Source of the DNA: Candidatus Udaeobacter sp.
Lineage (GTDB): Bacteria; Verrucomicrobiota; Verrucomicrobiia; Chthoniobacterales; UBA10450
Direction of reading: 5' to 3'
Length of the DNA stretch: 39,984 nt
Assembly: GCA_013372845.1 (NCBI GenBank)
Contig: JAALOD010000004.1
Span: 37,534-77,517, forward strand
Shown: positions 760-24,358 of the stretch, piece by piece
Position numbering within the stretch: the first letter of the stretch is position 1
Layout: each line of letters opens with the position of its first letter
The notes under the pieces: generated by a model
What the model saw: the letters and a program-made list of their open reading frames with translations, nothing else
The model's database searches: none
What the model was told of the DNA's origin: nothing
Translations under genes and position numbers: made by a program

Positions 760-1485
760 ATGGCCAACTTCTTTCCACGCTGGACCAACTGGATACCGCT
801 TAAACTGGTGATTTGCGGCATCATTGCGGTCTGTGGATTGACCGCAGCGACCTGGTATTATGCGACGCCAAAGTACACAAAGATTGGCTACGAACCGATC
901 CAGCCGGTGCCCTTTCCGCATGACATCCACGTCTCGCAATTGGGAATGGATTGCCGGTATTGCCACAGCTTTGTGGAAATGGCGGCCCACTCGAATGTGC
1001 CGAACACCCAGACCTGCATGAATTGCCATACACAGGTGCAAAAAGATAATCCGAAACTGGAGCCGGTGCGGGCGAGCTGGAAAACGGGTAACCCGGTGGA
1101 GTGGGTGTGGATCTATCGCACCGTCGATTACGTTTATTACAATCACGCCGCGCACGTGAACCGCGGCATTAGTTGTTTCAGTTGCCACGGCCCCGTCAAT
1201 CATATGTCGACGGTGTATCTGGCCAAGCCGCACAGCATGGCGTGGTGCCTCGAATGCCATCGCCACCCCGAGAATTTTCTGCGGCCGGAAGATCAGGTTT
1301 TCAATCTCGATTGGAAACCGGACGATGTGAAACCGGCGGAATTTGTTGCCAAGTACGGACAGCCGCAGGATGCGGGCGAGGATTTTTCGAAGAAGCAGAA
1401 ACTTAGCCAGGCAGAGATCGGCCGGACGTTGAAAGAGCACTGGAACGTCAATCCGCCAACGAACTGTCAGGGGTGCCACCGATGA
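760..1485 (+). CDS. actA: Alternative complex III subunit A, pentahaem cytochrome c
   Basis: ActA is the membrane-anchored multihaem cytochrome c of alternative complex III and carries electrons from the Fe-S subunit towards the acceptor cytochrome. The 241-residue protein has one N-terminal membrane segment (about residues 13-33) and five CXXCH haem-binding motifs: CRYCH (65-69), CMNCH (86-90), CFSCH (139-143), CLECH (163-167) and CQGCH (236-240). Five haems and about 240 residues match the family. It opens a long operon, and its stop codon overlaps the start of the next gene (ATGA). There is no obvious Shine-Dalgarno sequence before the ATG. The identification rests on the haem pattern plus the complete act gene order downstream. 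Confidence 0.95.
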   Translation: MANFFPRWTNWIPLKLVICGIIAVCGLTAATWYYATPKYTKIGYEPIQPVPFPHDIHVSQLGMDCRYCHSFVEMAAHSNVPNTQTCMNCHTQVQKDNPKLEPVRASWKTGNPVEWVWIYRTVDYVYYNHAAHVNRGISCFSCHGPVNHMSTVYLAKPHSMAWCLECHRHPENFLRPEDQVFNLDWKPDDVKPAEFVAKYGQPQDAGEDFSKKQKLSQAEIGRTLKEHWNVNPPTNCQGCHR

Positions 1486-4400
1486 AACGCGTATTCCAGC
1501 ATCCACCGGAGCCGCCAACCGGCAAGCATTACTGGCGCAGCCTGGGCGAATACAGCGATTCGCCCGAATTCCGACAGTGGCTGGAACGCGAATTCCCACA
1601 GGGCATATCCGAGCTGAACGGCGACGAATGGTCGCGACGCGATTTCCTGAAATTGATGGGAGCATCCATGGCGCTGGCAGGGGTTGGCCTAACGAGTTGT
1701 CGAAGGCCGGAGCTGCACCTCGTTCCGTTCACAAAGAACGTTGAATGGACAATTCCCGGAAAATTTCTGTACTACGCAACCGCGATGCCGCGGCGCAACG
1801 GCGCGATTCCGCTTGTCGCCACCACCGTAGACGGGCGTCCCATTAAACTCGAAGGCAACCCGCTGTACCCTGCGACCGCTGGGGCTACGGACACTTTCGT
1901 TCAGGCTTCAGTTCTCGACCTTTACGACCCGACCCGCTCGAAACGATTTGTTCGCAATGGGAAAACAAGCAAGCGCGAAGATTTCGAGGCCTACGTAGGA
2001 GAACTTCGTAATAAGCTTCTCAGCAGTCACGGCGATGGGTTGGCGTTTCTTGTGCAGGAAACGAATTCCCCCACGCGCGAGCGTTTGCGGGGAGAGTTGG
2101 AAAAAAATCTCCCCGGTATGCGCTGGTGTGTGTATGAGCCGCTCCTGGATCAGGAAATGAGTTCGGCCGTGGAAGCTGCGTTCGGCGCTGGTGCGCGCGC
2201 GATTCCCAGATTCGATCGCGCCGATATCGTTCTTGCATTGGACAGCGATTTTCTCGACTGCGGCCAGGGCGATCTCGCGTCAGTGCGCGCATTTACCTCT
2301 CGTCGCCGCGTCAGTACACCCAAGGACAGCATGAACCGGCTTTATGTCGTGGAAAATCGGTTCACACTCACGGGCGCGATGGCGGACCATCGGCTACGCT
2401 GTCCGGCCAGCCAGATCGCTGCGATAACGCAAGCTCTTGCAGCTAAAATTCTCGCGGGAACAAACGACTCGGGCATTCGATCGGTGATGGGAAATGTCCA
2501 GAGCCCTGCGGCATTCGGTGGTGACATATTCGATGAGCAATGGATAACCGGGTTGGCAAACGACCTGATGGCAAAACCTGGAGCGAGCCTTGTGCTGGCT
2601 GGTCCATCCCAGCCGGTTGCCGTGCAATTGCTCGTGTACGCGATCAATGCAGCCCTCAAAAACCTCGGTCAGACATTGGTTGTTCGCCAAATGCCGCGCA
2701 ATTCGCGAACAATCGAGATTGCTCAGCTCGCAGCGGAAATTAACGCCGGGCGGATCAAACACCTTTTCATTCTCGGGGGCGATCCGGTGTATAACGCGCC
2801 GCGTGGCCTTGCGGAGGACAAGCAAAAAAATCTGCCGCTCGATTGGGCTGAGCTGCAAAAACGCGTACCCGAGATTGTGCGGCTCGGGTATCACGAGGAC
2901 GCCACATCAGCGTTAAGCCAATGGCACGTTCCTGCTGCGCATTACCTTGAATCATGGGGAGACGCGCTGACTGCCGACGGCGATCACTTGTCGATCCAAC
3001 CGATGATTTTGCCTATTTTCGGTGGTCTCTCGGAAATCGAATTGCTCAACGCGCTGCTCGGCGGCCCGAAAATCGAAGGGCCGGAGCTCGTCCAGGAAAC
3101 TTTTCGCTCTACGAACCCGCCAGGCGATTTTCAAACTGCGTGGTCGCGTTTCCTTCACGACGGTTTTGCGACACACGTTCAGCCGCGTGATCGCTCTTCG
3201 TCGTTCAGTGCGAATGCAGGTGGCCAACAGAATCAAAGTTCGTGGACATTGCCGCCAGCTCCCACGCCAGATTCTCCCGAGATTGTGCTAACCGCCAGTT
3301 ATTCGATGGACGACGGCCGCTATGCTAACAACGGCTGGCTCCAAGAATTACCTGATCCCATAACCAAGCTTACCTGGGATAACGCAGCACTGATTAGTCC
3401 TGCTTATGCGAAGAAGCTCGGTGTGCTGACTGGAGATTTGATACAGATCGCAATTAACGAAAAGAGTGCCGGCGGCCAGCCGGTCAAACGCGAGCTGGTC
3501 ATCGCGGCGCTCGTGTCTCCTGGTCACGCCGACAATTCCGTTTCGATCCCGCTCGGTTACGGGCGAAAAATGCCGCAGTTCGACGGGCTGCCATACGCGG
3601 GTGGCGCGCTGAAAGAAAGACCGGGCATTGCGGAGCAGTCCGGTTTCAACGGCTACTTTCTACGAACGGCGGCAAATCCGTATTTTGTCGCCGCTGGCGG
3701 GAAAGGGGTTGAAAGCGTGCAGGTGACAAAAGTTGGTCGCACCTATCCGTTCTCGATTACACAGGAGCAATTCAGCATCGAGGGCCGCGGTCTTGTGCGC
3801 GAGGCGACGTTGGAAGGCTACCGAGCAAATAATGAGTTCGCGAAAAAAATTCCGGGAGAGGAAGAACTGCCGCATCCGCCGCCCAGCATCTACACGCATC
3901 CGCCGCTGAAGGCACCGCAGCAGTGGGGAATGAGTATCGATTTGAACGTGTGTACTGGGTGCAATGCGTGTGTGATCGCCTGTCAGGCCGAAAACAATGT
4001 TCCGGTCGTCGGCAAACTACAGGTGTCGCATGGTCGAATCATGCACTGGCTCCGGATTGATCGCTATTACGCCAGCCGCAAACCGTACAACCAGGACCGC
4101 GGCGAATGGCCTGACAATCCCGAAATCGTTCACCAACCGATGCCGTGCCAGCATTGCGAGAACGCGCCGTGCGAAACGGTTTGCCCGGTGAACGCGACCG
4201 TTCACAGCGAGGATGGTCTCAACGTCATGGCTTACAACCGCTGCATTGGCACGCGATTTTGCTCGAACAACTGCCCGTACAAGGTGCGCCGATTCAATTT
4301 CTTCGATTACAATCAGCGACCCGTCGGCAAGAGAAAAGTCGTCGGCGCATTCAACATCTACGAAGAATATTTCGCGCCGCTGACCACCAAGGGCGCGCCG

Positions 4401-4793
4401 GACACGATCAAGATGCAGAAAAATCCTAACGTGACGGTGCGGATGCGCGGCGTGATGGAGAAATGCACCTTCTGTGTGCAACGGATCGAGGAGGCAAAGA
4501 TCGCGGCGCTCGCGCGCGCGGGCGCTTCGCCAGAGACGAGAATCCCGCGCGATTCTTTCACCTCGGCCTGTGCGCAAGCGTGTCCCACCGAAGCGATTGT
4601 CTTTGGCAATATCAAGGATCCGGAAAGCCGTGTGTCAAAAATGAAACAGCAGGATCGGAACTACCGAATTCTCGATTATTTGAACGTCGTCCCACGAGTC
4701 AGTTATCTCGCGCGCATTCGCAATCCAAACCCGAAGATGCCTGACGCGCAAAACATCGGGATCGCAAGTTTTGAGGAGAAATTGCCGGAATGA
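1482..4793 (+). CDS. actB: Alternative complex III subunit B, molybdopterin-like/Fe-S fusion
   Basis: ActB is the large peripheral subunit: a molybdopterin-oxidoreductase-like domain fused to a ferredoxin-like domain, 1103 residues from the ATG at 1482. That ATG overlaps the actA stop by four bases; a GTG at 1473 is also in frame but less likely. A twin-arginine motif (SRRDFLK, residues 51-57) sits before a hydrophobic stretch, as in Tat-exported ActB proteins. The C-terminal Fe-S domain has four cysteine clusters: CTGCNACVIAC near residue 824, CQHCENAPCETVC near 888, CIGTRFCSNNC near 921, and CTFC near 995 with CAQAC near 1030. Known ActB proteins hold three [4Fe-4S] clusters and one [3Fe-4S] cluster and no molybdenum. 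The twin-Arg motif starts about 50 residues in, so the leader is unusually long. Confidence 0.95.
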   Translation: MKRVFQHPPEPPTGKHYWRSLGEYSDSPEFRQWLEREFPQGISELNGDEWSRRDFLKLMGASMALAGVGLTSCRRPELHLVPFTKNVEWTIPGKFLYYATAMPRRNGAIPLVATTVDGRPIKLEGNPLYPATAGATDTFVQASVLDLYDPTRSKRFVRNGKTSKREDFEAYVGELRNKLLSSHGDGLAFLVQETNSPTRERLRGELEKNLPGMRWCVYEPLLDQEMSSAVEAAFGAGARAIPRFDRADIVLALDSDFLDCGQGDLASVRAFTSRRRVSTPKDSMNRLYVVENRFTLTGAMADHRLRCPASQIAAITQALAAKILAGTNDSGIRSVMGNVQSPAAFGGDIFDEQWITGLANDLMAKPGASLVLAGPSQPVAVQLLVYAINAALKNLGQTLVVRQMPRNSRTIEIAQLAAEINAGRIKHLFILGGDPVYNAPRGLAEDKQKNLPLDWAELQKRVPEIVRLGYHEDATSALSQWHVPAAHYLESWGDALTADGDHLSIQPMILPIFGGLSEIELLNALLGGPKIEGPELVQETFRSTNPPGDFQTAWSRFLHDGFATHVQPRDRSSSFSANAGGQQNQSSWTLPPAPTPDSPEIVLTASYSMDDGRYANNGWLQELPDPITKLTWDNAALISPAYAKKLGVLTGDLIQIAINEKSAGGQPVKRELVIAALVSPGHADNSVSIPLGYGRKMPQFDGLPYAGGALKERPGIAEQSGFNGYFLRTAANPYFVAAGGKGVESVQVTKVGRTYPFSITQEQFSIEGRGLVREATLEGYRANNEFAKKIPGEEELPHPPPSIYTHPPLKAPQQWGMSIDLNVCTGCNACVIACQAENNVPVVGKLQVSHGRIMHWLRIDRYYASRKPYNQDRGEWPDNPEIVHQPMPCQHCENAPCETVCPVNATVHSEDGLNVMAYNRCIGTRFCSNNCPYKVRRFNFFDYNQRPVGKRKVVGAFNIYEEYFAPLTTKGAPDTIKMQKNPNVTVRMRGVMEKCTFCVQRIEEAKIAALARAGASPETRIPRDSFTSACAQACPTEAIVFGNIKDPESRVSKMKQQDRNYRILDYLNVVPRVSYLARIRNPNPKMPDAQNIGIASFEEKLPE

Positions 4794-4852
4794 GGAACAG
4801 GAACATAGACATTTTGTCTGCGCGCAGGCCGCAGGTCGATCTTCCATAAAGC

Positions 4853-6301
4853 ATGGACGGAGCACCAACAGCACCAGAGACGATCAAAGAAGCGGAGCAG
4901 GAGCTCACGCGCGTACCGCTTGTGCTGCACCGGCGCAACTTTAGCTGGTTGACGGAACGGATCTCCGGAGTGGTGGAACAACCCGCGCCGCGCTGGTGGT
5001 GGGTGGCCTTCGCCATCACTTCAAGCGCCGCGACTTTCGGACTTTTTTGTATTGGATATCAGATTTCCACCGGCGTCGGCACATGGGGAAATCAGATCCC
5101 CGTCGGCTGGGCCTGGGACATTACCAATTTCGTTTTCTGGATCGGTATCGGACATGCCGGCACACTGATCTCCGCGATCTTGTTCTTGCTGCACCAAAAA
5201 TGGCGTACTTCCATCAATCGTTCCGCGGAAGCGATGACGCTGTTTGCGGTGATTTGCGCGGCGATTTTCCCAGGTATCCACGTCGGCCGGTTCTGGATGG
5301 CGTGGTATATGGCGCCTATGCCTAACAACTGGGGGATCTGGCAAAATTTCCGCAGCGCGCTGATGTGGGACGTGTTTGCGGTCTCGACCTATTTTACTGT
5401 CTCGGTCCTGTTTTGGTACACCGGGTTGATTCCGGATTTGGCGACGTTGCGCGATCGGGCAACCACAAAGGTCAGAAAGTTTCTTTTTGGAATTTTCGCG
5501 TGCGGCTGGCGCGGATCCAATCGCAACTGGCGCCATTACGAGATGGCATACCTGCTTTTGGCCGGCCTTTCTACTCCGCTGGTCCTCTCGGTGCACAGCG
5601 TGGTATCATTCGACTTCGCTTCGACGCTTATACCGACCTGGCACACCACAATCTTTCCGCCCTATTTCGTTGCTGGCGCGATCTTCGGCGGGTTCGCGAT
5701 GGTGCTGACCCTTCTCCTGCCGGCGCGTGCCATATTCAAACTGCACGATGTGATTACTCCCCAGCACGTCGACAAAATGGCAAAGATCATTTTGTTAACC
5801 GGCTCATTCGTCGCCTACGCCTATACGATGGAGTTTTTCGTCGCCTGGTATAGCGGCAATTCCTACGAAAAGTTCGCCTTTTGGAACCGCATCTTCGGTC
5901 CCTACTGGTGGTACTGGTGGTTTGGCATGCTTTTCTGCAATTGCCTTTCCCCGCAACTTTTCTGGTTCTCGTGGTGCCGCCGGAATGTGTTTGTCGTCTT
6001 TTTCGTCTGCATGTGCGTGAACGCGGGCATGTGGTTTGAGCGCTTCATCATTATTGCCGGTGGTTTGGTCCGCGATTTCCTGCCATCGTCCTGGAGAGTA
6101 TTTCATCCAACCTGGGTGGATATCTGGACCTACATCGGCACAATCGGGATTTTCACTTCGCTTTTCCTGTTATTCATTCGGTTCCTGCCGATGATTGCCA
6201 TGTCGGAAGTAAAGACTGCAGTGCCGGAGGCGGACCCGCATTACGGCACACTACCCGGGGTTCAATCCGTATCTCCCGGAGGAAAGGAGCGCACACGATG
6301 A
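4853..6301 (+). CDS. actC: Alternative complex III subunit C, NrfD-like quinol-binding membrane protein
   Basis: This is a 482-residue polytopic protein of the NrfD/PsrC family, with about ten hydrophobic segments starting near residue 45 ([18 protein letters not shown]). In alternative complex III, ActC sits under ActB and is thought to bind quinol and provide a half proton channel. Family-like stretches include [23 protein letters not shown] and the [20 protein letters not shown] region. A 59-base gap separates it from actB, the largest gap in the act part of the operon, and no Shine-Dalgarno sequence is seen. It overlaps actD by four bases (ATGA). Confidence 0.93.
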
Positions 6302-6855
6302 TGAGGACTCCTGCCGGCCACAAGGTGTACGCAATGGCTGCGGAATATCCCAGCGCGGCCGCCCTTTACGAAGCAGCCAAACATGTCCGTGATGCTGGCT
6401 TCAAACGCTGGGACGTTTATTCCCCGTTTCCAATCCACGGAATGGACGAGGCGATGGGGCTGGGAAAATCCTGGCTGAGCGGTTGGGTTTTGTTCGGCGG
6501 CGTCACCGGTTTGCTTACTGCCGCTGTCGTCGAATTTGGTCCGTCATCGATTCTCTATCAGCTCGATGTGCACGGTAAGCCTTGGAACTTCTGGACGGTT
6601 CCGGCGTTTTTCCCAATCATGTTTGAACTGACAGTCCTTTTCGGAGCGTTCGCCGCATTCTTCTCGATGCTTGGCATGAACGGATTGCCCCGCTGGTACC
6701 ACCCAATGTTCAATTGGGAACGGTTTATCCGTGTAAGCAACGACGGATTTTTCCTCGCGATCGAGTCGCACGATCCACGGTTCACCGAAAACGGTGTGCG
6801 CGAATTATTGGAAAGAACCGGAGGCGAACACATCACCATTGTGCACGAGGACTGA
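6298..6855 (+). CDS. actD: Alternative complex III subunit D (DUF3341)
   Basis: This 185-residue protein belongs to the DUF3341/ActD family. It has a soluble N-terminal part with the family-typical stretch [18 protein letters not shown], two membrane segments (about residues 60-82 and 100-125) and a soluble C-terminus. In solved alternative complex III structures ActD is a small membrane subunit packed against ActC. Its ATG overlaps the actC stop by four bases, suggesting translational coupling, and two bases separate its stop from actE. Confidence 0.92.
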
Positions 6856-6857
6856 AT

Positions 6858-7547
6858 ATGTTGCGCGGCTTTCTGGTGATTTTTATTCTGTGCGGAATCG
6901 CGATCCTCGCGGTCTTTGGATTTCGTGGACAGAAGAGCACCGCCCCGCCGACTGAGGTTTTCCCCGATATGGTGCGACAGATGAAGGTTCGTGCACAAGC
7001 ACCGCTTGGTCTTTTTGCCGACGGGCGCGGACCACGTCTGCCGGTCGCTGGCACTGTGCCGATTGGCTACGAGATGCCAAAGCCGGGGTCAACCCAACAA
7101 GCGGAGCCCGATGTGGGTCCATGGTCTCATCCGCGCGCTGATTTTGGTGGCGGCACTGATTACTACAACACTGGCAAAATGGGCGATCACTGGGGAACAG
7201 GCATTCCGGTTCCGGTTTCGCGCGAGCTGATGGAGCGCGGACAACAGCGTTTCAACATAACCTGCGCGATGTGTCACGGCGCTACTGCAGCAGGTAACGG
7301 GATCACAAAGCAATACGGGCTCGCGACTGTCGTTACGCTTCAGGATGAACGAATCCGCAAGATGTCCGATGGCGAGATTTTCAACACGATTACGAATGGC
7401 AAAAACACAATGATGGCCTACGGGCCAAACATTATCGTGCCCGATCGCTGGGCGATCATCGCGTACCTGCGCGCGTTACAGCGCAGCCAAAACGCAACGA
7501 CAGCCGATGTTCCTGAGGACCGGCGCGCAGAACTGGAGAAACAATGA
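6858..7547 (+). CDS. actE: Alternative complex III subunit E, monohaem cytochrome c
   Basis: ActE is the monohaem cytochrome c subunit that follows actD. From the ATG at 6858 it has 229 residues: an N-terminal membrane anchor or signal segment (about 3-21), a linker, and a C-terminal cytochrome c domain with one haem motif, CAMCH (136-140). The distal methionine could be one of the Met residues in NTMMAYGP. The open frame extends further upstream into actD, but that part is out of frame with actD and has no family character, so the ATG just after the actD stop is the better start. A purine-rich stretch (gaggact) lies close upstream. It overlaps actF by four bases. Confidence 0.92.
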   Translation: MLRGFLVIFILCGIAILAVFGFRGQKSTAPPTEVFPDMVRQMKVRAQAPLGLFADGRGPRLPVAGTVPIGYEMPKPGSTQQAEPDVGPWSHPRADFGGGTDYYNTGKMGDHWGTGIPVPVSRELMERGQQRFNITCAMCHGATAAGNGITKQYGLATVVTLQDERIRKMSDGEIFNTITNGKNTMMAYGPNIIVPDRWAIIAYLRALQRSQNATTADVPEDRRAELEKQ

Positions 7548-8746
7548 GCGAGCGTTCCCACACTGTCCCAACACCGGAAGGCGAATATTTCGAGAGCAAC
7601 CGCTTTGCAGGCCTCTCCTCGCTCCTGGGATTGATTGCCATTGTGGCGCTGGCGCTTTGCGTCGTCGGCGCATTTCTAAATCCGCATCAATTCAGCTATT
7701 CGTGGCTGTTTGCTTTTGCATTTTTCTTCACGCTGTGCGCCGGCTGCTTTTTCTGGACGATTGTGCATCACGCCACGGACGCTGACTGGTCGGTGGTGGT
7801 GCGGCGCCAGTTGGAAAACATTGCGGTGTTACTGGTGGTGCTGGCGATTCTTTTTGTGCCGATCCTTCTCCTGCGGCGCCATCTGTATTCCTGGATGGAC
7901 ATCCCGCCCGGTGTCGAACATGCGCTTGATGCGAAGCGTGCCTATCTCAATTGGTCGTTCTTTCTAGTCCGCGCGGTCGTGTTTCTGGGCTTTTTCCTTT
8001 GTGCATCGCTCGTTTTGCGCCGCTTATCGGTGAAACAGGACAAGGATGGAAATCCACGGTTCACCATCTTGATGCGCAAAGTCGCGTTTATCAGCCTGCC
8101 AATGTTCGCGCTTTGTCTCACCTTTGGCGCATTCGATTGGCTGATGAGCCTGAACTATCACTGGTTCTCCACGATGTTTGGCGTGTACATCTTCGCGGGC
8201 GCGGCAGGGAGCTCGATGTCGCTGCTCGTCCTGGTCATCACAGCATTACGGCGGGCTGGATATTTGAAGGACATCATCACCCTTGAGCATTACCACACCA
8301 TGGGAAAATGGATGCTCGCCTTCTGTATTTTCTGGGCCTACATCGGTTTTGGCCAGTACATGCTTATCTGGTACGCGAACATACCGGAGGAGACGCAATT
8401 TTTTATCACCCGAAACACTGAATCGTGGTGGGCGCTGAGCATGCTGCTCGTAGTAGGACGCTTCTTTATCTGTTTTGGGATTCTCCTCTTGCAATCGATC
8501 AAAAAGGAGCCGCGGCACCTTTGCTGGGTCGCGGGATGGATTCTCTTCATGCAAATGCTGGACATGTACATCATTGTCCTGCCCGCGTTACACGGCACAG
8601 GGGTGCACCTCAGCATCTGGGATTTGCTTTCCCTCATCGCCATCGGCGCCACGCTCGGTTTTGTTTATCTGCGAATTGTGCCTCGGACTTCTCTCTTTCC
8701 AGTCCGCGATCCGCGCCTGATTGAATCTTTGAACCTGGTGAACTGA
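7544..8746 (+). CDS. actF: Alternative complex III subunit F, NrfD-like membrane protein
   Basis: This 400-residue protein has about ten membrane segments, is related to ActC and completes the ABCDEF set. Hydrophobic segments are visible from residue 24 (SLLGLIAIVALALCVVG) onwards. The stretches FDWLMSLNYHWFSTMFGVYI and GFGQYMLIWYANIPEET are typical of ActF. In the complex it is a second NrfD-like membrane subunit thought to contribute to proton translocation. It overlaps actE (ATGA) and is followed after one base by the next gene. Confidence 0.93.
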   Translation: MSERSHTVPTPEGEYFESNRFAGLSSLLGLIAIVALALCVVGAFLNPHQFSYSWLFAFAFFFTLCAGCFFWTIVHHATDADWSVVVRRQLENIAVLLVVLAILFVPILLLRRHLYSWMDIPPGVEHALDAKRAYLNWSFFLVRAVVFLGFFLCASLVLRRLSVKQDKDGNPRFTILMRKVAFISLPMFALCLTFGAFDWLMSLNYHWFSTMFGVYIFAGAAGSSMSLLVLVITALRRAGYLKDIITLEHYHTMGKWMLAFCIFWAYIGFGQYMLIWYANIPEETQFFITRNTESWWALSMLLVVGRFFICFGILLLQSIKKEPRHLCWVAGWILFMQMLDMYIIVLPALHGTGVHLSIWDLLSLIAIGATLGFVYLRIVPRTSLFPVRDPRLIESLNLVN

Positions 8747-8747
8747 T

Positions 8748-9305
8748 ATGGCTGATACCGAATCACTTCGTCAAGTTGCCCATGGACGCACTCCGTTGTC
8801 GGCCTGGTTCGGGATCGTGCTTCTCTTTGCGCTTTTTGGTGTGATCGTGCTCGCGATCATTGGGCCGGCGCCGCGTGGAAGCGATTACGAAGAAGCCCGG
8901 GCGAAAAAGCGCGTGGGGAATTTGAAGACTGTGCGCGAGGAAGCCGACAAGGCTTTGACCACTTATGGTTGGATCGACAAAAACAAAGGCGTCGCTCGCA
9001 TCCCGATTGAGCCTGCCATGGAATTGACAGTTGCCGAGCTGGCGAAGCAAAAGCCGGCGCCGGCAGGTCCGATCGCTACGCCCGAGGCGCAAGCAACTGC
9101 AAGCGCTCCAGCGAGTGCCACTTCCCCGGCCCCTGCTACGTCTCCGAAACCCGGCGGCGCACAAGCATCACCTCAAGCGGCTGCGCCTGCTGCACCTCAA
9201 GGAGCGGCGGTCTCTAGTCCGCAGCCTTCACCGGCAGCCCAGGCATCGCCATCGCCGGCCGCTTCCCACGCGCCAACGTCACCAAGCCCTGCCAAAAGCC
9301 CATGA
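8748..9305 (+). CDS. Small single-span membrane protein with Pro/Ala/Ser tail, function unknown
   Basis: I do not recognise a named family. The 185-residue protein has one membrane segment (about residues 20-42), then a charged region, then the stretch GVARIPIEPAMELTVAEL at about 83-100. RIPI..AM.L is a short motif I associate with small proteins encoded beside respiratory complexes. From about residue 103 to the end it is low-complexity Ala/Pro/Ser sequence. It lies between actF and the ccoN-like gene, with a one-base gap upstream and an ATGA overlap downstream, so it is very probably translated with them. It may be an assembly factor or accessory subunit; that is inference from position only. 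Confidence 0.75.
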   Translation: MADTESLRQVAHGRTPLSAWFGIVLLFALFGVIVLAIIGPAPRGSDYEEARAKKRVGNLKTVREEADKALTTYGWIDKNKGVARIPIEPAMELTVAELAKQKPAPAGPIATPEAQATASAPASATSPAPATSPKPGGAQASPQAAAPAAPQGAAVSSPQPSPAAQASPSPAASHAPTSPSPAKSP

Positions 9306-10783
9306 ACGCCACCGGAATTCCACTAAAAGAACCGGCTATTTCCGCTGCCGCAGGTGACACGGAGCAATTTGAACGCGCCCTGATCGACGCCTCAACACGC
9401 GTCCCGGTGTTGATCTTTTACACTTCGGCGATGGCGTGGCTGATCCTCGGCACGCTGCTCGCTGGTTTCGTTTCATTCAAGCTGCACACACCGGATTTGC
9501 TTTCTGACATCAGTTTCCTCACCTGGGGACGCGTGCGCCCTGTCCACATGAATGTGATGGTGTACGGCTGGGCGTCCATGGCTGGCATGGGCACGGCGAT
9601 CTGGCTGATGGCCAGATTGTGCCGCACAGTCCTGCGTTATCCGCTGCTCTTGGTTGCGGGCGCTGGATTTTGGAACCTGGGAGTTTTCCTCGGCGTGTGC
9701 GGAATTCTCCTCGGCGATAGCACCGGTTATCAGTGGCTCGAGTTCCCCAGCTACGCTGCCATCATTCTTTTTGTCGCTTACACGCTCGTTGCCTCTTGGG
9801 CCGTGTTGATGTTTCGGTTTCGGCGCGGTGAACAAATTTACATTACGCAATGGTATTTACTTGGTGCGTTTCTCTGGTTCCCGTGGCTGTACGCGGCTGG
9901 CCAGTTAATGCTCTTCGTCGTCCCGGTGCAGGGGGTGTTGCAGGCGGCTGTTGGCTGGTGGTACGCGAATAATCTGCTGTTTCTCTGGTTCGGCGCGATT
10001 GGTCTCGGCACCGCGTATTACATGATTCCCAAGGTGATCGGTCGGCCGGTGTACAGTTATCATTTGGCAACGATCGGTTTCTGGAGCTACGCGTTGTTTT
10101 CCAGTTGGACCGGGATGCAGCGCCTCGTCGATGGACCGTTCCCAGCCTGGATGGTCACTGCAAGTATCGCGGCCACAATCCTCACGCTGATTCCCGTCGC
10201 CACCGTTGGGCTCAATCATCACATGACCATGCAAGGCTATTTCCCACTGATGCGCTACAGTCCGACGCTTCGCTTTACCGTGTTCGGTGCGATGTCTTAT
10301 ACCGTCTTTAGTCTGGTCGGTGTTCTGATTTCGCTGCGCTCCGTTGCCCGCTACGTGAACTTTACGCAGGCGAGCATCGCGTATTCACATCTCGGCCTTT
10401 ATGCATTTTTCACGATGGTGATTTTCGGCTCAATGTACTACATCGTGCCGCGACTGATTGGACGCGAGTGGCGCTATGGGTCGTTGATCAAACTGCATTT
10501 CTGGGCATCGGCCTACGGAATTGGGCTGATGACGCTGATGCTTCTCGCCGGCGGCCTTACTCAAGGCACGGGCATGGAGAATCCTTCGCTCGCTTTCAGT
10601 GAAAGCGTCGAATCGGTGTTGCCTTACCTGCGCGGACGCAGCCTATCCGGCATTTTGCTGACGGTGTCGCACTTCATCTTTGCGTATCACTTCGGATTGA
10701 TGCTTTTCGGCCTGGGTCGCAAATCGACGGTGCCCACATTTCTTAATCCAGTCGAAGCGGAGGGGGCCGAAGTGGCGCACTAA
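9302..10783 (+). CDS. CcoN-like haem-copper oxidase subunit I lacking the catalytic site ligands
   Basis: This 493-residue polytopic protein aligns along its length with CcoN of cbb3 oxidases: GRVRPVHMN, WWY, YYMIPK, RPVYSY and GSMYYIVPRLIG all have CcoN counterparts. Both low-spin haem b ligands are kept (His82 and His363). The catalytic centre is not. In the CcoN motif WWYGHN the CuB histidine is replaced, giving WWYANN (Asn223). The CuB His-His pair is replaced by Gln273-Arg274. The cross-linked Tyr position is Ser267. The high-spin haem ligand in the HVH motif is Tyr361 (YSH). It is therefore unlikely to reduce oxygen or NO, and probably carries one b haem for electron transfer or quinol contact. 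It overlaps both neighbours. No frameshift or stop is present, so the losses are not decay of the reading frame. Confidence 0.9.
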   Translation: MNATGIPLKEPAISAAAGDTEQFERALIDASTRVPVLIFYTSAMAWLILGTLLAGFVSFKLHTPDLLSDISFLTWGRVRPVHMNVMVYGWASMAGMGTAIWLMARLCRTVLRYPLLLVAGAGFWNLGVFLGVCGILLGDSTGYQWLEFPSYAAIILFVAYTLVASWAVLMFRFRRGEQIYITQWYLLGAFLWFPWLYAAGQLMLFVVPVQGVLQAAVGWWYANNLLFLWFGAIGLGTAYYMIPKVIGRPVYSYHLATIGFWSYALFSSWTGMQRLVDGPFPAWMVTASIAATILTLIPVATVGLNHHMTMQGYFPLMRYSPTLRFTVFGAMSYTVFSLVGVLISLRSVARYVNFTQASIAYSHLGLYAFFTMVIFGSMYYIVPRLIGREWRYGSLIKLHFWASAYGIGLMTLMLLAGGLTQGTGMENPSLAFSESVESVLPYLRGRSLSGILLTVSHFIFAYHFGLMLFGLGRKSTVPTFLNPVEAEGAEVAH

Positions 10784-11802
10784 TGAAAGGACTCGCCCCT
10801 CTTTTTCTCGGAATCTTCGGGACATTTGCGTTCTCCTGGGTGGGATTGACTGTGATCCCGAATTGGCAAATCGGACACCTCAATCCTCAATCTGACGAGG
10901 AAGGCACAGATATCTATCCAATGCCGCAATCGGGAATGGTCACGCGCGGCGCGCGCGTTTACGCCGCGAACGGCTGCAACTATTGCCACAGTCAACAGGT
11001 CCGCGCCGAGTATTCGGGCGCCGATATCGAGCGAAAATGGGGTGACCGCCGCAGCGCGCCACGGGACTACATTTTCGAGCGACCTGCTTTACTTGGGAAG
11101 ATGCGCATGGGCCAGGACCTGGCGAACATCGGCGCACGCGCGCCAAAGGAAGAGGAAAGTCCTTCGCCCACGGGCGGGGCAAGTCCCGCGCCACAAGCAG
11201 CGGCGGCCTCCCCGGGCGCCGTAGCCTCGGCGAAGGCGGCCAGTCCGCCGCCGTCAGCTGCAGCCTCTCCTTCACCCGCGAGCTCGCCTGCGGCCGCGGC
11301 GGCAACATCGCCCGGTGCTATTGCATCGAAACCGCCAACCAGCCCCGGTCCGGCGAGTTCTCCACCTTCAAAGTCTCCTGCAACAGCAGTGGCTGGGGGC
11401 ACAAGTCCAGCTGCATCTGCATCACCGCCTGGGGCAGGACCACCGTGGCCTGAGCAAACGGCGGGATTACCACCAATGTATTCCGCTGCCTGGCATCACG
11501 TGCATCTTTATTCGCCGCGCAGTATCAATCTTGATTCGAACATGCCGTCGTATCGTTTTCTCTATCGCGCCCGCCGCATCAGTGCCGGGCGGTCATCGGA
11601 CGCTTTGCAGCTCACCGGTTCGGACGTGCCACCAGAGGGGTGGGAAATCGTTCCCACCTTCGATGCAAGATGTTTGGTCGCCTACATGATGGCGCTTAAT
11701 CAATCGCATCCGTTGAAGGACGTCAGGTCGGCTGGTGCGTCAGCAGCCTCATCACAAGCGGCTTCACCTTCGCGTGGGCCTGGAGGACAACCAGCAAAAT
11801 GA
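10783..11802 (+). CDS. CcoO-like monohaem cytochrome c with long low-complexity insertion
   Basis: This 339-residue cytochrome c resembles CcoO (FixO). It has an N-terminal membrane anchor (about 5-24), a haem motif CNYCHSQQVR (CXXCH at 65-69) that matches the CcoO signature, and the C-terminal CcoO block WHHVHLYSPRSINLDSNMP with a likely distal haem ligand Met254. Between GQDLANIGARAP and GLPPMYSAAW an Ala/Ser/Pro-rich insertion of about 110 residues (roughly 121-232) splits the cytochrome domain. Standard CcoO proteins are near 200-240 residues and go almost directly from one block to the other. It overlaps the ccoN-like gene by one base (TAATG) and the next gene by four. It probably accepts electrons from the neighbouring b haem or from ActA/ActE. 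Confidence 0.9.
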   Translation: MKGLAPLFLGIFGTFAFSWVGLTVIPNWQIGHLNPQSDEEGTDIYPMPQSGMVTRGARVYAANGCNYCHSQQVRAEYSGADIERKWGDRRSAPRDYIFERPALLGKMRMGQDLANIGARAPKEEESPSPTGGASPAPQAAAASPGAVASAKAASPPPSAAASPSPASSPAAAAATSPGAIASKPPTSPGPASSPPSKSPATAVAGGTSPAASASPPGAGPPWPEQTAGLPPMYSAAWHHVHLYSPRSINLDSNMPSYRFLYRARRISAGRSSDALQLTGSDVPPEGWEIVPTFDARCLVAYMMALNQSHPLKDVRSAGASAASSQAASPSRGPGGQPAK

Positions 11803-12575
11803 ACGAGAACACTCCACCACCGGAGCCGCCTTCCGGCCAGGGTATGGATTACAGCGAAATCGCTGATGTGCACGAAGTCCATGCTGCGGTGCAGCGCGAG
11901 AAACGCGAGCCGCGTGTTGGTCGCGAACCGCTTTCCATCTGGTTGATCGCCGTGTACGGACTGGCAGTATTTTTTGGCGGCGCTTATCTCGGCCGCTTCT
12001 CGGGAAATTTCAGTGGTGAAGCGCTTGATCCATACGGCGGTGAAATGCCCACGATGAAAAAAGTTACCGGGCCGCAGGGCGCCCAACCGGAGGCCGAACT
12101 TTCGCCGCATGATCGCGGAAAGAAGGTTTTTGCGGCCAATTGCCAGACATGTCATCAAGCGAACGGTCTCGGAGTGGCAGGGCAGTATCCGCCGTTGGCC
12201 GGTTCGGAATTTACGACCGGCGGCTCACGGCGCCCGGCGATGATTGTTCTCAAAGGTTTGACAGGTCCAGTCACCGTAAAGGGCCAGAAATTCGGTGCGG
12301 CCGTGATGCAACCGTGGGATAAAACATTGACTGACCAAAAAATTGCCGACGTTCTCACATACGAGCGAAGTGAGTGGGGGAACAACGCTAGCCCGGTGAC
12401 AGCTGAACAGATTGCCGCGTTGCGCAAGGAACTCGCGAATCATCCCAATTCGTTTACCGAACCGGAGATACTTGCTGCTCCCGAAGAAGATCTTCTCGGC
12501 GGCGCACCGGGTGGTGCACCTCCCAAACCAGGCGAAGCCGCAAAGCCGGGCGAACCGCCAAAGCCGAAAGGGTAG
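11799..12575 (+). CDS. CcoP-like membrane-anchored monohaem cytochrome c
   Basis: This is the last gene of the act operon. The 258-residue protein has a soluble N-terminus with an acidic stretch (MDYSEIADVHEVH), one membrane segment (about 46-64) and a cytochrome c domain with CQTCH (115-119) and a probable distal Met170 in AAVMQPW, followed by the usual LTDQKIADVLTYE helix. The tail is Pro/Gly-rich (GGAPPKPGEAAKPGEPPKPKG region). CcoP of cbb3 oxidases normally has two haems; only one CXXCH is present here. It starts inside the ccoO-like stop (ATGA). With the two upstream genes it forms a ccoN-O-P-like trio. Confidence 0.88.
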   Translation: MNENTPPPEPPSGQGMDYSEIADVHEVHAAVQREKREPRVGREPLSIWLIAVYGLAVFFGGAYLGRFSGNFSGEALDPYGGEMPTMKKVTGPQGAQPEAELSPHDRGKKVFAANCQTCHQANGLGVAGQYPPLAGSEFTTGGSRRPAMIVLKGLTGPVTVKGQKFGAAVMQPWDKTLTDQKIADVLTYERSEWGNNASPVTAEQIAALRKELANHPNSFTEPEILAAPEEDLLGGAPGGAPPKPGEAAKPGEPPKPKG

Positions 12576-12641: not shown

Positions 12642-13058
12642 CTAGTCTTCTCGGTTCGGAGTGCCGAGGATGTGGCTTTTCGGCGGCATCATCACGTTGT
12701 CGAAGTTTTGGGTGAACATCGCAGCGGCGAAGAAAGCGACGGCGCGCAATGTTTCCTTACCGACATTGACCAGGTCGTGTTTCACCGGCGTTGGAATGGC
12801 AAAAACACTGCCCGGACCGGTGCCGGCGATAATGTACTGCGTCTCCTGGGTGGCATCGGTATGCCAGCCGAGCCGTTTTCCCGGCTCGATCTCATAAACG
12901 ATCGTGGAAGATGCGGTGGCGCCATGGCCGCCATAGACGGCGAAAGCGCCAGCCCAATGAACTGACCCATCATCCTCAGCCCACACCTCAGTTCGCTTAA
13001 GTTTCTCAGACGCAACTACTGGATTCATGGGCGTCGAGGCTAGGGTGTGGCTATCCAT
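12642..13058 (-). CDS. Cupin-domain protein
   Basis: A short single-domain protein, 138 residues from the ATG at 13058; a start at 13085 is also possible. The central part fits cupin motif 1 with one variant metal ligand (GWHTDATQETQYIIAGTG, where the usual HxH reads HTD but the Glu is kept). Motif 2 is KHDLVNVGKETLRAVAFF. Cupins of this size often bind a metal and act as small-molecule sensors or isomerases, but the substrate cannot be told. It converges on the act operon with a 66-base gap. The region upstream of its start is pseudogene material. Confidence 0.7.
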   Translation of the reverse strand: MDSHTLASTPMNPVVASEKLKRTEVWAEDDGSVHWAGAFAVYGGHGATASSTIVYEIEPGKRLGWHTDATQETQYIIAGTGPGSVFAIPTPVKHDLVNVGKETLRAVAFFAAAMFTQNFDNVMMPPKSHILGTPNRED

Positions 13059-13106
13059 CGTCAATAACAGAAACCCTTCTGCCACATTGCAGCTGACGCA
13101 CGACGG

Positions 13107-13345
13107 CTACAGCAGCGCTTCGGCGAGTACCTCGGCCATATGCTTTTGGCTGGATATTTGTGAGATCGCGGATTTGATGCCGGCAACTTGTCCCTGAGGC
13201 GATGATCTGTGTCTCGCGGCCTTGATTCTCGAGCTTGTCGATCAAATCCTGGGCGACTTGGACCGACAGGTCATATTTCTCGGCGAGCGCTCCGAACGCG
13301 CCCGCCATTCCGCAGCAGGCTGTATTGAGCACAGTCGCGTTCCTG
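13107..13345 (-). pseudogene. 3' fragment of a second YdiJ-type FAD/Fe-S dehydrogenase
   Basis: The minus strand encodes a copy of the C-terminal end of the dehydrogenase at 16492-19395: ATVLNTACCGMAGAFGALAE, then DLIDKLENQGRETQIIASGT and SCRHQIRDLTNIQPK. After PK an extra A shifts the frame; in the shifted frame HMAEVLAEALL and a stop at 13107 complete the match to the intact gene's end. DNA similarity to 16497-16725 is obvious by eye over about 200 bases. Nothing upstream belongs to the same gene; the DUF4105 gene begins instead. It is a displaced or duplicated gene end. The stop codon TAG lies in a TGTAGCC sequence like that of the repeat family at 26010 and 28815. Confidence 0.85.
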
Positions 13346-13390
13346 GCAGTCTCTCTACCGACATTCGCCACGCGGCCGGGGGAAGCCGCG

Positions 13391-14431
13391 TCAGGGGTGG
13401 ATCGTCGGCACCGAGGCGCGAATGCGCTTAGAAAAATCCGGGGCTTGGTCGGCCGCCCGTGCGGCCTCGTTGATCCGGGAACGTCTGCGCAGTTCGTCAA
13501 ACGGAAGCGTAGTGTCTATCCGGCCCGAGTTGTAGAGATAGCCATCGATCAGGCCATTGAAGAGATGGCGGATGTTGAACCGGCCAACCCTACCGGCGGC
13601 GTTCGCGTAGCGCACGATGTTGATCGTGCAGCTATTGCTAAGCAGATGGTAGAACTCCGCCCGATCGGCGAGATCGTTAATCCGTTTGAGGTAGGCCATC
13701 AGCAGTCGGCGCGCACTTTCCGCCGAGACGTTCAGACGGTAGAGATACACCTCCTCATCGCGGTAGTTGGTGCGCAAGCGGACGAGGTCGCGCTCGTCAC
13801 CTACGACATAGATTAACTCGAATTGCTTGAATAGCGAGGCGATGGGCGCAAAGTCCTCGCCCACCTCCGGTCGCGTTTCGATGGAGATGCTCAGCGGCGG
13901 CGCGTTATCGAAGATGAAACTCACGAATGTGTGGGCGACTAGTCCCGGTGCCCAATAGGATACGTAGAAGTCGACGTGGATCAGGTGCGACAGCAGCACC
14001 TCGCGCTCCTCGTAGTGTACGGTGAAATCATTCCGCGTGCGGTAGTCGAAATTGCGAACACCAGTGATTCGCACGCGGTCGCCTTCGATAGCTACCCTCG
14101 GCATCACTGCCACCTCAGGCCGCCATGGGCGATCATGCGAAGGCTGGATGGTGCTCCACGCCACGACGACACCGAGAAACACCCCGGCAAAGACCCACTT
14201 CATCAGCGGCCGGCGTGTGAGCCACGAGGCCCAAATGCCGAACGCGAGGAAGACCATCGCCAGCACGACGCGCAACCAGGCCCACGGCAGATTCGAATAA
14301 TAAATGGCCAGCGCGGCCCAACCCAGGAGCACTGGCCCAACCAGAAATCCGGCTGCCCTGACCAGCCAGCCCACCGGCTTGGGCAACCGCCCCGGTGACG
14401 CCCGCGGGCGGCGCGATTCAGTAGACGCCAT
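13391..14431 (-). CDS. DUF4105 (Lnb N-terminal periplasmic domain) membrane protein
   Basis: 346 residues from the ATG at 14431. The N-terminus has several hydrophobic segments (AAGFLVGPVLLGWAALAIYY; WLRVVLAMVFLAFGIWASWL; MKWVFAGVFLGVVVAW), followed by a large extracytoplasmic domain of the DUF4105 type. Family features are the AHTFVSF block with its histidine and the NSCTINIVRYAN block with its cysteine, plausibly the catalytic His and Cys of a papain-like peptidase fold. The in-frame extension beyond 14431 (to 14527) lacks family character. It lies inside a segment bounded by duplicated dehydrogenase ends. The natural substrate is unknown. Confidence 0.82.
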   Translation of the reverse strand: MASTESRRPRASPGRLPKPVGWLVRAAGFLVGPVLLGWAALAIYYSNLPWAWLRVVLAMVFLAFGIWASWLTRRPLMKWVFAGVFLGVVVAWSTIQPSHDRPWRPEVAVMPRVAIEGDRVRITGVRNFDYRTRNDFTVHYEEREVLLSHLIHVDFYVSYWAPGLVAHTFVSFIFDNAPPLSISIETRPEVGEDFAPIASLFKQFELIYVVGDERDLVRLRTNYRDEEVYLYRLNVSAESARRLLMAYLKRINDLADRAEFYHLLSNSCTINIVRYANAAGRVGRFNIRHLFNGLIDGYLYNSGRIDTTLPFDELRRRSRINEAARAADQAPDFSKRIRASVPTIHP

Positions 14432-16491: not shown

Positions 16492-19395
16492 TTAAACGAG
16501 CGCTTCTGCCAGCAATTCTGCCATATGCTTCGGGCGTACATTTGTTAGATCGGTAATCTGATGCCGGCAACTTGTCCCTGAGGCGATGATTTCTGTCCCG
16601 CGCGCTTGATTGTCGATCTTGTCGATCAAATCCTGGGCGACTTGGATGGAGAGGTCGTATTTCTCGGCGAGCGCTCCGAACGCGCCTGCCATTCCGCAGC
16701 ATGCGGTATCGAGCACCGTCGCTTTTCTCCCGGGCAAACGTTCCGCGAGTCTTCGCATGAACGCAGGATTAATGATCGATCTGGCATGACAATGCGGATG
16801 GATTGCAACATTCACCGGTGAATGCTCGAAGTGCACGGCGTCCGGTTCCTGCGCGAGTAGCTCGTCTACAAATTTTTCAAACAAAAAACAGCGGTTCGCT
16901 ATCTTCTCCGCGTGCTCGATCCTTAGCTCGCGATAATCTTCCACGAACATTGACCAGCACGATGGCTCGAGAAACAGGATTGGAGTGCTGGAGGTCTGAA
17001 CCGGACTGGCATTATTGAGTGATAAGAGAAGATCCGCATTGTGTTTTCCGACTTTCACCGCGGCGTCGAGATTTCCCTGACTAAACGCTGGTCGCCCGCA
17101 ACAGCGCCGATTCTCTACGAGCGAAACTTCGAACCCGAGCGCCTCCAGCACTTTGACCGCGGCAATTCCGATGTGTGGTTCGTGGTAGCGTACAAACGTG
17201 TCGTCCCAAAGAATGACGGGGCCCCGCTTGTAGCCGCGGGGGTTGACCGCGGCGCCGGGGTCAGCGACCCCGGCTACAGCGCGCCTCCCAAACCAGTTAT
17301 CAAATCGCTCTTTCGCATAATGTGGTAACGAACGTTGCGCTGAAAGTCCGAGCGCTTTTTCCATCGCGATCCGCACAGGCTTTGAATCGAGAAACCAATT
17401 TGCGAGCGCTGGGATCGCGCAGCCGATTTTGCCTAGCAAATCGACGTTGCTGAAAAGTCGCTCAGGCAACGGCAGACCATCACGCTTATTTCGCGCATGC
17501 ATCAATTCCGCTTTGATCAGCGACAGATTCACGTTGGACGGGCACTCGGGTGTGCACCCTTTGCAAGAGAGACAATTGCTCAGTGCGGCCTCCAGTTCCG
17601 CAGAACGCAAGGGATCGTGCCCGTTGACGCGCAGTTCCAGCGCGGCGCGGATTATGTTGGCGCGGCCACGCGTGGACATGACTTCTTCGTGCGTCGCCAT
17701 AAACGTCGGGCACATGACGCCGGTTTGTTTAAGGCAGCCGCCGCAGCCGTTGCATTGTTCCAGGTTGCCGATGAACGAATGATCTTTGAACGCGAAGGCG
17801 AGCTCGGGGTTGAATGGGAGCTCCAGCGGTCGTGTGAAGTTTTCGCGCAGATAATTGTCGATTCTGTGTCGATGACCGTCCGGCTCGGACCCAGCGGCGA
17901 AAATCTTTCCCGGATTGAAAATGTTTTTCGGATCGAACATTCGCTTGATCTCGCGCATTACTCCGAGCAGCTCATCGCCGAGTTGCTCCTGCATGTATTC
18001 GGTGCGCGCGATACCGACACCGTGCTCGGCGGAAAGCGAGCCTTTGAATTGCCGCACCAGCGCAGAAGTTTGATCTGCGACCTGCCGAAACTTTTTTAGA
18101 TCGTTTGCACTATGCAGATCGAGCACTGGGCGCACGTGTAGAAGTCCGCTGGCAGCGTGACCGTAGTAACTCGCTTCCAGTGCGAGCGGTTGCATGATCG
18201 ATCGCAATCCCCGTACGTATTCCGGCAACTGCGCTGGGCGAACAGCAGCATCTTCGATAAACGCGACCGGCTTGGCAGGCCCGATGCAGCCGGTCAAAAG
18301 TGAGAGGCCGGATTTGCGCACCGACCAGACCAGATTCATTTGCGCTGGCTCGGTGAGGATTTTGGTGCGCAGGCCGATTTTTCTCGCTTGTAGAATCGAC
18401 AATCGTTCGGCGACGTCATCATAGAACTCAACGATCAAAATCGATTCGCAAGGCTGCGTGTCGAGCTCGAGCAAGTCGCGCGCCGCCTGAAAATGGAGCT
18501 GGCCTTTGGTTTGATCGAGTAAAGGACGATCGATGTGCTCAATGGCGGCCGGTTTAAGATCGAGAAGCTCAACAGTGGCCTGCATCGCTTCATCCACCGA
18601 GGAAAAAAAGACCAGGCCCAGGCCTTTTTCATTGGGGAGCGGCGAAATCTTGAGTTCGGCGGAGAAAATCGCAGCGAGCGTTCCTTCGCTGCCCGCGAAA
18701 ATATTCGTGAGGTCATTGGGCGCACGCAGGAACCTTTCAATGCCGTAACCGGGCCAGCGTTTTATCAAGCCGGGCGGCCAGCGCTCGACCATCTCCGCGC
18801 TTCGTGCCCGGATGAGATTCTCGATTTCAGCTCGCTCCGCGCACAACGATTCGTGCATTCGGCCAATCGTCTCGACGCGACTATTGGCCATCACGACTTC
18901 CAAGGAGATCACGTGATCGGCAGTTGTCCCGTAGATTGGGCAACGCGCGCCGGAGGAATTGTTCGCGATCATTCCGCCAAGTGTCGCTCGTGAGCTCGTT
19001 GCTACATCCGGACCGAAACAAAATCCATGAGGCCTTAGAAATTCGTTGAGCTGATCGAGAACAACGCCTGCCCCGACATGTACGCTGCGTTTTTCGAGGT
19101 CAAGGTCAGTGATCTGGCGGTTGTAGCGTGAGAACTCGACAATCAAACCTTCGCCAATCGCGTTCCCCACCAGACTCGTGCCGGCCCCACGCGGAGTGAC
19201 TGAAACGCCCGAGTCAGCGGCTGCGCGAATGACTGCGCTCGCTTGCTGTGCGTCTTTCGGAAACGCCACCCCGATCGGCTCGATCTGATAAATCGAAGCA
19301 TCAGTCGCGTACAGCTGTCGCGTCAGGTTATCAAAGCGAACATCACAACCGGTTTGCCTGATTTTTCTTTCCTGCGCGGAAGTCATTTCGACCAC
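16492..19395 (-). CDS. FAD/Fe-S D-2-hydroxyacid dehydrogenase (YdiJ/D2HGDH type)
   Basis: The 967-residue protein combines an FAD-binding PCMH-type domain (about 35-215; PRGAGTSLVGNAIGEG and ATLGGMIANNSSGARC), an FAD-oxidase C-terminal domain (about 240-480, ending near SAEHGVGIARTEYM), a ferredoxin-like part (CNGCGGC near 545, CLSCKGCTPEC near 606) and two CCG domains (RRCCGRPAF near 762, TACCGMAGAFG near 895). This is the YdiJ layout, enzymes that oxidise D-2-hydroxyglutarate or D-lactate and feed electrons to the respiratory chain. Oddly, about 17 residues near 705-722 (AVAGVADPGAAVNPRGYK) are encoded by a TGTAGCC...GGCTACA hairpin repeat, between FGRR and RGPVILWDD. The start could also be the Met at 19386. 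Confidence 0.92.
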   Translation of the reverse strand: MVEMTSAQERKIRQTGCDVRFDNLTRQLYATDASIYQIEPIGVAFPKDAQQASAVIRAAADSGVSVTPRGAGTSLVGNAIGEGLIVEFSRYNRQITDLDLEKRSVHVGAGVVLDQLNEFLRPHGFCFGPDVATSSRATLGGMIANNSSGARCPIYGTTADHVISLEVVMANSRVETIGRMHESLCAERAEIENLIRARSAEMVERWPPGLIKRWPGYGIERFLRAPNDLTNIFAGSEGTLAAIFSAELKISPLPNEKGLGLVFFSSVDEAMQATVELLDLKPAAIEHIDRPLLDQTKGQLHFQAARDLLELDTQPCESILIVEFYDDVAERLSILQARKIGLRTKILTEPAQMNLVWSVRKSGLSLLTGCIGPAKPVAFIEDAAVRPAQLPEYVRGLRSIMQPLALEASYYGHAASGLLHVRPVLDLHSANDLKKFRQVADQTSALVRQFKGSLSAEHGVGIARTEYMQEQLGDELLGVMREIKRMFDPKNIFNPGKIFAAGSEPDGHRHRIDNYLRENFTRPLELPFNPELAFAFKDHSFIGNLEQCNGCGGCLKQTGVMCPTFMATHEEVMSTRGRANIIRAALELRVNGHDPLRSAELEAALSNCLSCKGCTPECPSNVNLSLIKAELMHARNKRDGLPLPERLFSNVDLLGKIGCAIPALANWFLDSKPVRIAMEKALGLSAQRSLPHYAKERFDNWFGRRAVAGVADPGAAVNPRGYKRGPVILWDDTFVRYHEPHIGIAAVKVLEALGFEVSLVENRRCCGRPAFSQGNLDAAVKVGKHNADLLLSLNNASPVQTSSTPILFLEPSCWSMFVEDYRELRIEHAEKIANRCFLFEKFVDELLAQEPDAVHFEHSPVNVAIHPHCHARSIINPAFMRRLAERLPGRKATVLDTACCGMAGAFGALAEKYDLSIQVAQDLIDKIDNQARGTEIIASGTSCRHQITDLTNVRPKHMAELLAEALV
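16495..16730 (-). repeat. Direct repeat copy: 3' end of the dehydrogenase gene
   Basis: This is the intact counterpart of the fragment at 13107-13345, in the same orientation and about 3.4 kb away. Long identical runs are shared, for example ctgatgccggcaacttgtcc and gtcgatcaaatcctgggcga. The two copies flank the DUF4105 and amidohydrolase genes. Confidence 0.85.
17229..17278. repeat. TGTAGCC...GGCTACA hairpin repeat inserted in a coding region
   Basis: A 50-base element with ends TGTAGCC and GGCTACA enclosing two GC-rich hairpins, GCCGCGG...CCGCGGC and GCCGGGGTC...GACCCCGGC. It has the same architecture as the elements at 26010-26090 and 28815-28899. Here it lies in frame inside the dehydrogenase gene, adding about 17 residues without a stop. 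Confidence 0.8.
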
Positions 19396-23486: not shown

Positions 23487-23496
23487 ATCCAACGCA

Positions 23497-24354: not shown

Positions 24355-24358
24355 GCCA

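Follow-up and report, generated by a model that had tools for sequence, protein, structure and literature searches.

Introduction

In textbooks, subunit I of the haem-copper oxidases serves as the marker of oxygen respiration, and high-affinity respiration is predicted from cbb3 genes. In Flavobacterium johnsoniae and Rhodothermus, alternative complex III (ACIII) and an A-type oxidase are encoded together or bound to each other, and c-haems lie between them (PMC8552683, PMC5928083). In verrucomicrobial methanotrophs, the ACIII genes directly adjoin cbb3 oxidase genes, a pairing otherwise known in Opitutaceae according to a FEMS review (PMC8498564). The cbb3 oxidase was tied to high oxygen affinity in the Kam1 genome paper (PMC6688271) and is listed for Methylacidiphilum (PMC10205796); for strain IT6, a 2024 paper describes both aa3 and cbb3 genes adjoining the ACIII cluster (PMC11102522).

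We report here the analysis of a 39,984-nucleotide stretch of DNA from Candidatus Udaeobacter sp. (the window), in which a gene coding for a CcoN-like protein (hereafter N) is found in an ACIII operon, and of the homologues of this protein in Verrucomicrobiae.

Results

Gene organisation of the window

The features of the window, with the evidence for each in brackets, are:

760-1485, + strand: ActA, pentahaem cytochrome c of alternative complex III (five C..CH)
1473-4793, + strand: ActB, molybdopterin-like and Fe-S protein (profile matches)
4853-6301, + strand: ActC, NrfD-like membrane subunit (PF03916)
6298-6855, + strand: ActD (PF11821, 185 bits)
6855-7547, + strand: ActE, monohaem cytochrome c (PF13442; one C..CH)
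7544-8746, + strand: ActF, membrane subunit (position, length and conserved synteny; no Pfam match)
8748-9305, + strand: small 185-aa protein with an N-terminal hydrophobic segment and a Pro/Ala-rich tail (sequence, synteny)
9302-10783, + strand: N, CcoN-like (C-family haem-copper oxidase core), without the ligands of CuB and haem b3 or the cross-linked Tyr, with His82 and His363
10783-11802, + strand: O, CcoO/FixO-like monohaem c subunit, CNYCH at residue 65 (PF02433, 65 bits)
11799-12575, + strand: cyt c, CcoP-like monohaem cytochrome c, CQTCH at residue 115 (PF00034/PF13442)
21603-23486, + strand: CtaD, A-type oxidase core (PF00115, 444 bits; HPEVY, HH and HFH motifs; ligands intact)
25163-26014, + strand: COX2 with CuA motif (CAQLCGLGHYGM), no c-type haem domain (motif)

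The actABCDEF genes lie in order at 760-8746, which identifies an ACIII operon, and from the small protein to cyt c the starts and stops of the genes overlap. A first reading of the DNA made from its sequence only (the sequence-only reading) had placed N between actF and two cytochromes c; the operon context stood, with the correction that the 185-aa Pro/Ala-rich gene (8748-9305) separates actF and N. This small protein keeps its position in most loci. The O protein carries a Pro/Ala/Ser-rich insert of about 100 aa after the haem domain (window 11150-11470), which is particular to the window's family, where O has a length of 315-351 aa versus a median of 231 elsewhere.

The A-type oxidase genes (21603-26014) are located 9 kb downstream of the act-N-O-cyt c operon, and their CtaD is likely the real terminal oxidase. 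The COX2, with CuA and without a c-type haem domain, needs an external c-haem donor, a part that O and cyt c could play. The genome to which the window belongs (a 3.2-Mb draft, 83% complete) encodes two A-type cores, and a search of the rest of this draft for a canonical ccoN found none. Its nearest named relatives are MAGs of soil Verrucomicrobia, among them an uncultured Candidatus Udaeobacter sp. (88%) and further Chthoniobacterales. A short ORF at 13051-13500 on the minus strand is a partial copy (86%/225 bp) of the end of a large FAD-oxidase/Fe-S protein gene at 16492-19395, also on the minus strand. No RNA families or tRNAs were found in the window.

Fold and ligand residues of the CcoN-like protein

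The N reading frame starts with ATG and codes for 493 aa with zero internal stops. The protein scored 192 bits with Pfam COX1 and 167 bits with NCBIfam ccoN, far below the equivalog cut-off of 583, a cut-off that a canonical CcoN passes (643) and that the intact ACIII-linked members (217-273) also fail to reach. The AF2 model (pLDDT 89.4, pTM 0.90) has the fold of a haem-copper oxidase subunit I, and its best PDB match is CcoN of P. stutzeri (3mk7; TM 0.86/0.91, 2.1 Å).

Residues were mapped by a phmmer alignment to 3mk7_A and by a 123-sequence MAFFT alignment, in P. stutzeri CcoN numbering, the roles of the 3mk7 residues (haem, CuB, cross-linked Tyr) being those established for the cbb3 structure. 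The two ligands of the low-spin haem are present as His82 (H60) and His363 (H347). The three CuB ligands are replaced by Asn223 (H207), Gln273 (H257) and Arg274 (H258), the cross-linked Tyr by Ser267 (Y251) and the proximal His of haem b3 by Tyr361 (H345). Three arginine residues, Arg79 (R57), Arg324 (R308) and Arg446 (R437), are unchanged, and Glu122 and His337 of P. stutzeri correspond to Gln144 and Asn353. The two alignments agree residue by residue on the loss of the oxygen-reducing site and the retention of the low-spin His82/His363, as had been read by eye. Divergent C-family homologues from outside the ACIII operon show all seven ligands under the same procedure, and the losses are therefore not misalignment. 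From its residues, N looks preserved on the low-spin side and lost on the high-spin side, and it would, with near certainty, be unable to bind CuB or haem b3 and to reduce O2.

Among 25 same-genus N sequences, no variation is seen at six of the seven site positions, position 273 being Q or T, nor at 287 of 430 core positions. N, with a median dN/dS of 0.052, ranks lowest of five genes of the operon, ActF, O, cyt c and the small protein all having higher values. N of the window genus is under strong purifying selection and its state is fixed in the genus; this invariance, together with the low dN/dS, indicates that the altered ligand set is a conserved state and not a sequencing error. The earlier description of an intact frame and a retained protein was thus upheld by the uninterrupted 493 aa, the dN/dS of 0.05 and the adjoining act genes.

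Distribution and ligand states in Verrucomicrobiae

The N gene was found in 50 of 58 relatives (a few of these matches being canonical CcoN), and a scan of the class with a profile of 13 members gave a match in 185 of 237 genomes, again with some canonical CcoN among the matches. The gene order ActABCDEF-small-N-O-cyt c is kept in nearly all loci read, from about 100 genera, and nearly all have an open N reading frame. The N gene is part of a class-wide ACIII operon of Verrucomicrobiae. In the phylum sample outside the class, only lower-scoring C-family matches were obtained. All seven ligands are present in L247 and L248, from outside the class, and in L252, a distant copy within it.

The ligand set was written as a seven-letter code in the order b1-CuB-Tyr-CuB-CuB-b3-b2, HHYHHHH being complete. 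The complete code occurs in 34 of 119 distinct N loci, and some or all ligands are lost in 85. The window family has HNSQRYH or HNAQRYH; beyond this family and the intact set, nearly all ligands are gone in most loci. Complete, low-spin-haem-only and empty forms of N are all extant at the same operon position. The losses among act-linked homologues, which the sequence-only reading expected to be consistent, are so within the genus and are scattered at the level of the class. The O subunit has its C..CH motif in 100 of 100 homologues (33 beside an intact N and 67 beside a lost one). The motif is likewise present in 115 of 116 cyt c homologues; the one without it is a short ORF (118 aa) near a contig end. 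Death of the site loosens the ligand positions and their surroundings, and 51 positions remain conserved at 75% or more across 33 families.

Some individual loci deserve mention. In family f7, L040 (HRYHHHH) and L075 (HHCSHHH) are otherwise complete proteins, apparently at the first steps of site loss. One genome of the window family, G036, has an ACIII-linked low-spin-only N plus a stand-alone N-O pair with complete ligands (L035 and L043). At L041/L254 and L077/L253, the N-O-cyt c module is intact and the several kilobases upstream of it contain no act genes, so the module can exist apart from ACIII.

Homologues in Methylacidiphilum and Opitutus

All ten Methylacidiphilaceae N loci, including that of Kam1 (G102) and those of G071 and G117 (likely SolV/V4), read SESSHFV or ADAAHQx, with the sole His at the third CuB position and no haem-b, haem b3 or other CuB ligand. 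With such residues, even the low-spin haem would be unexpected in Methylacidiphilum N, and the lone His would stand in a non-functional context. The ligand-free N of M. fumariolicum SolV is modelled as CcoN (pLDDT 87, TM 0.85/0.87). The Methylacidiphilaceae genomes carry pmoA. No canonical ccoN was found in the Methylacidiphilum genomes, in which profile A1 gave the ACIII-linked dead gene and weak matches only; the PF00115 match of SolV outside the A-/B-type cores reads as NorB by sequence motifs, though no NCBIfam model named it. The ACIII-linked homologue of Opitutus terrae PB90-1 (G139) reads QQGRHQQ.

The cbb3 oxidase claims published for several such bacteria are probably wrong. The caution that annotation by family name would mislead is well illustrated by the cbb3 assignments in print for Methylacidiphilum (PMC8498564, PMC6688271, PMC10205796, PMC11102522). 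A search of the open-access literature found no earlier report of the ligand losses in N.

Other terminal oxidases in the same genomes

A CtaD search showed an A-type oxidase in every surveyed genome whose N is lost or low-spin-only, except for G093, in which a bd oxidase is present. Eight of 39 intact-N genomes have no A-type match, and in G065, G185 and G058 bd is absent too, the intact N being the only terminal oxidase found; a PF00115 search of G065 and G185 gave the intact N as sole match. The absence of an A-type oxidase, 8/39 with intact versus 1/75 with lost N, gives a Fisher's p of 0.0007 with relatedness ignored and with individual cases that draft incompleteness could blur. This difference in oxidase complement leads us to conclude that the intact ACIII-linked N is very probably a real oxidase and that a genome can do without the site only when it encodes another oxidase.

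In some decayed operons no A-type oxidase adjoins, and the A-type lies elsewhere in the genome. Adjacency to an A-type oxidase was also considered as the trigger of loss and was rejected, because intact N occurs beside CtaD as well (L039, L042, L093, L094, L111).

The low-spin haem histidines

N of the window family likely binds, to judge from its ligands, a single low-spin haem b, liganded by His82 and His363. Of 60 sequences of this family (67-99% identity), 50 have both histidines, 7 have neither and 3 have only one; the pair was lost on at least three separate occasions. The paired loss suggests that both His serve one haem where it is present; the sign test was non-significant, with too few independent pairs. 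Among the same-genus sequences read, the His pair and Arg79 are kept without exception, which argues that the haem matters in the window genus. Sister lineages that lost the low-spin histidines have 67-82% identity, and most ACIII-linked N of the class are without the pair. In whole families, His82 is kept and His363 is Ile or Leu (L097, L109, L123, L126 and L135 of f15; L089, L112 and L116 of f34).

In the sequence-only reading, N was seen as a b-haem subunit for electron transfer or quinol contact within an enlarged ACIII; the low-spin haem would then be an obligatory redox step. Such a role would suit the invariance of His82 and His363 in the genus sample, the retention of Arg79 in the family, the tendency of the two His to be lost together, as expected if both ligate one haem, and the dN/dS of 0.05. 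We nevertheless find it rather unlikely, since sister lineages and most of the class, including the cultivated Methylacidiphilum, have kept this operon after losing the His pair, with the c-haems of the neighbours remaining. Moreover, ACIII has its own quinol-oxidising subunits and, without b3 and CuB, the low-spin haem has no known acceptor within the subunit. The b haem would be dispensable, and not an obligatory electron step, because the His pair is repeatedly lost while the c-haem motif of O survives in every homologue.

Parallel losses or replacement of the gene

Changes between intact and lost N were counted on the trees of four genes. The ActC tree shows 17 changes, of which at least 10 are forced by well-supported branches, the ActF tree 18 (at least 9 forced) and the OLIKE tree 13 (at least 5 forced). 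We read them as losses, because canonical CcoN possesses the full set of ligands and its regain would be implausible. On the N tree, with the 21 site columns removed, only four changes are counted, and most lost sequences lie, on long branches, outside a compact intact clade.

This last tree would fit a single ancient loss giving a dead paralogue, the N gene alone being later swapped between operons, and so would G036, which carries a stand-alone intact copy beside a degenerate one (L043, L035). We consider such swapping unlikely in comparison with parallel losses: ActC, ActF and OLIKE, which flank N on both sides, interleave lost and intact forms, and even in the N tree some losses are nested among intact relatives (L121 in f21; L040 and L075 in f7). 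Since the lost sequences are long-branched and the flanking-gene trees disagree with the N tree, we prefer to read its low change count as long-branch attraction, with the site lost many times in parallel.

Discussion

The ancestor of N would be a functional oxidase core of the C family (cbb3-like), encoded together with ACIII in Verrucomicrobiae. In the reading that we favour, and which we hold to be probable, N is a dead oxidase core kept as a scaffold for a c-haem wire leading from ACIII to a separate oxidase. N may thus have been retained as a membrane scaffold that keeps the two monohaem cytochromes, CcoO-like and CcoP-like, in contact with ACIII, and electrons could pass from ActA/ActE to O, then to cyt c and to CuA of a separate A-type oxidase. 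The low-spin haem b of the window family would be a structural or side cofactor, as its repeated loss in sister lineages suggests. What points to a scaffold is that the b haem seems dispensable while the neighbouring c-haems remain; gene order, conservation and the overlapping starts and stops are consistent with this role, with the electron path and with a physical place of N in ACIII. The broader proposal, that ACIII-linked oxidase cores repeatedly became metal-free or single-haem scaffolds for a c-haem wire, as a new adaptor between complex III and A-type oxidase, appears to us evenly balanced between right and wrong.

It is quite improbable that the emptied cavity or the proton channels were adapted to new chemistry or ion conduction, for example proton movement coupled to ACIII. 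The window family has replacements that are both specific and conserved (Asn223, Arg274, Tyr361), and 51 positions are conserved in dead lineages, as would suit an adapted protein, but the residues at the same positions differ between families, so that no shared new site is visible. A functionless relic, decaying while carried by the operon, is harder still to sustain: N is faster than ActC in dead groups (dN/dS 0.12-0.21 vs 0.05-0.11), but its dN/dS lies far under 1 in all groups (0.05 in the window genus), the frames are open in nearly all loci and the operon position is kept across the class. The idea that N is a functional oxidase and that the alignments put its ligands in the wrong place is virtually untenable, with no supporting point found and with the agreement of phmmer and MAFFT, the CcoN fold and the recovery of all seven ligands in distant C-family proteins against it.

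A widespread soil and aquatic class thus carries cbb3-like genes without the oxygen site; the published methanotroph cbb3 beside ACIII lacks a usable ligand set, as does the O. terrae homologue. If the scaffold reading is true, it is a case of an enzyme complex that repeatedly lost its catalyst and was retained as wiring. Cultured organisms carrying a dead N exist, which opens the scaffold reading to experiment.

Compared with known systems, N resembles CcoN of the cbb3 oxidase (3mk7) in fold, helix plan, low-spin His pair and CcoO-like and CcoP-like partner genes; it differs by the missing ligands of CuB and haem b3 and the missing cross-linked Tyr, by its 167 bits against a cut-off of 583 and by its place in an ACIII operon. 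The intact ACIII-linked cbb3-like oxidases (L037, L039, L081, L091, L093) share with N its operon position and its O and cyt c partners, at about 44-55% identity; unlike N, they have all seven ligands, and an intact N of this kind is the sole terminal oxidase found in G065, G185 and G058. The 'cbb3-type' oxidase next to ACIII in Methylacidiphilum is the same gene at the same operon position as the window N, from which it differs in that all seven ligand positions are altered, the low-spin His pair included. Finally, the ACIII-aa3 supercomplex of F. johnsoniae and Rhodothermus, unlike the window, has no CcoN/CcoO-like module between the two complexes.
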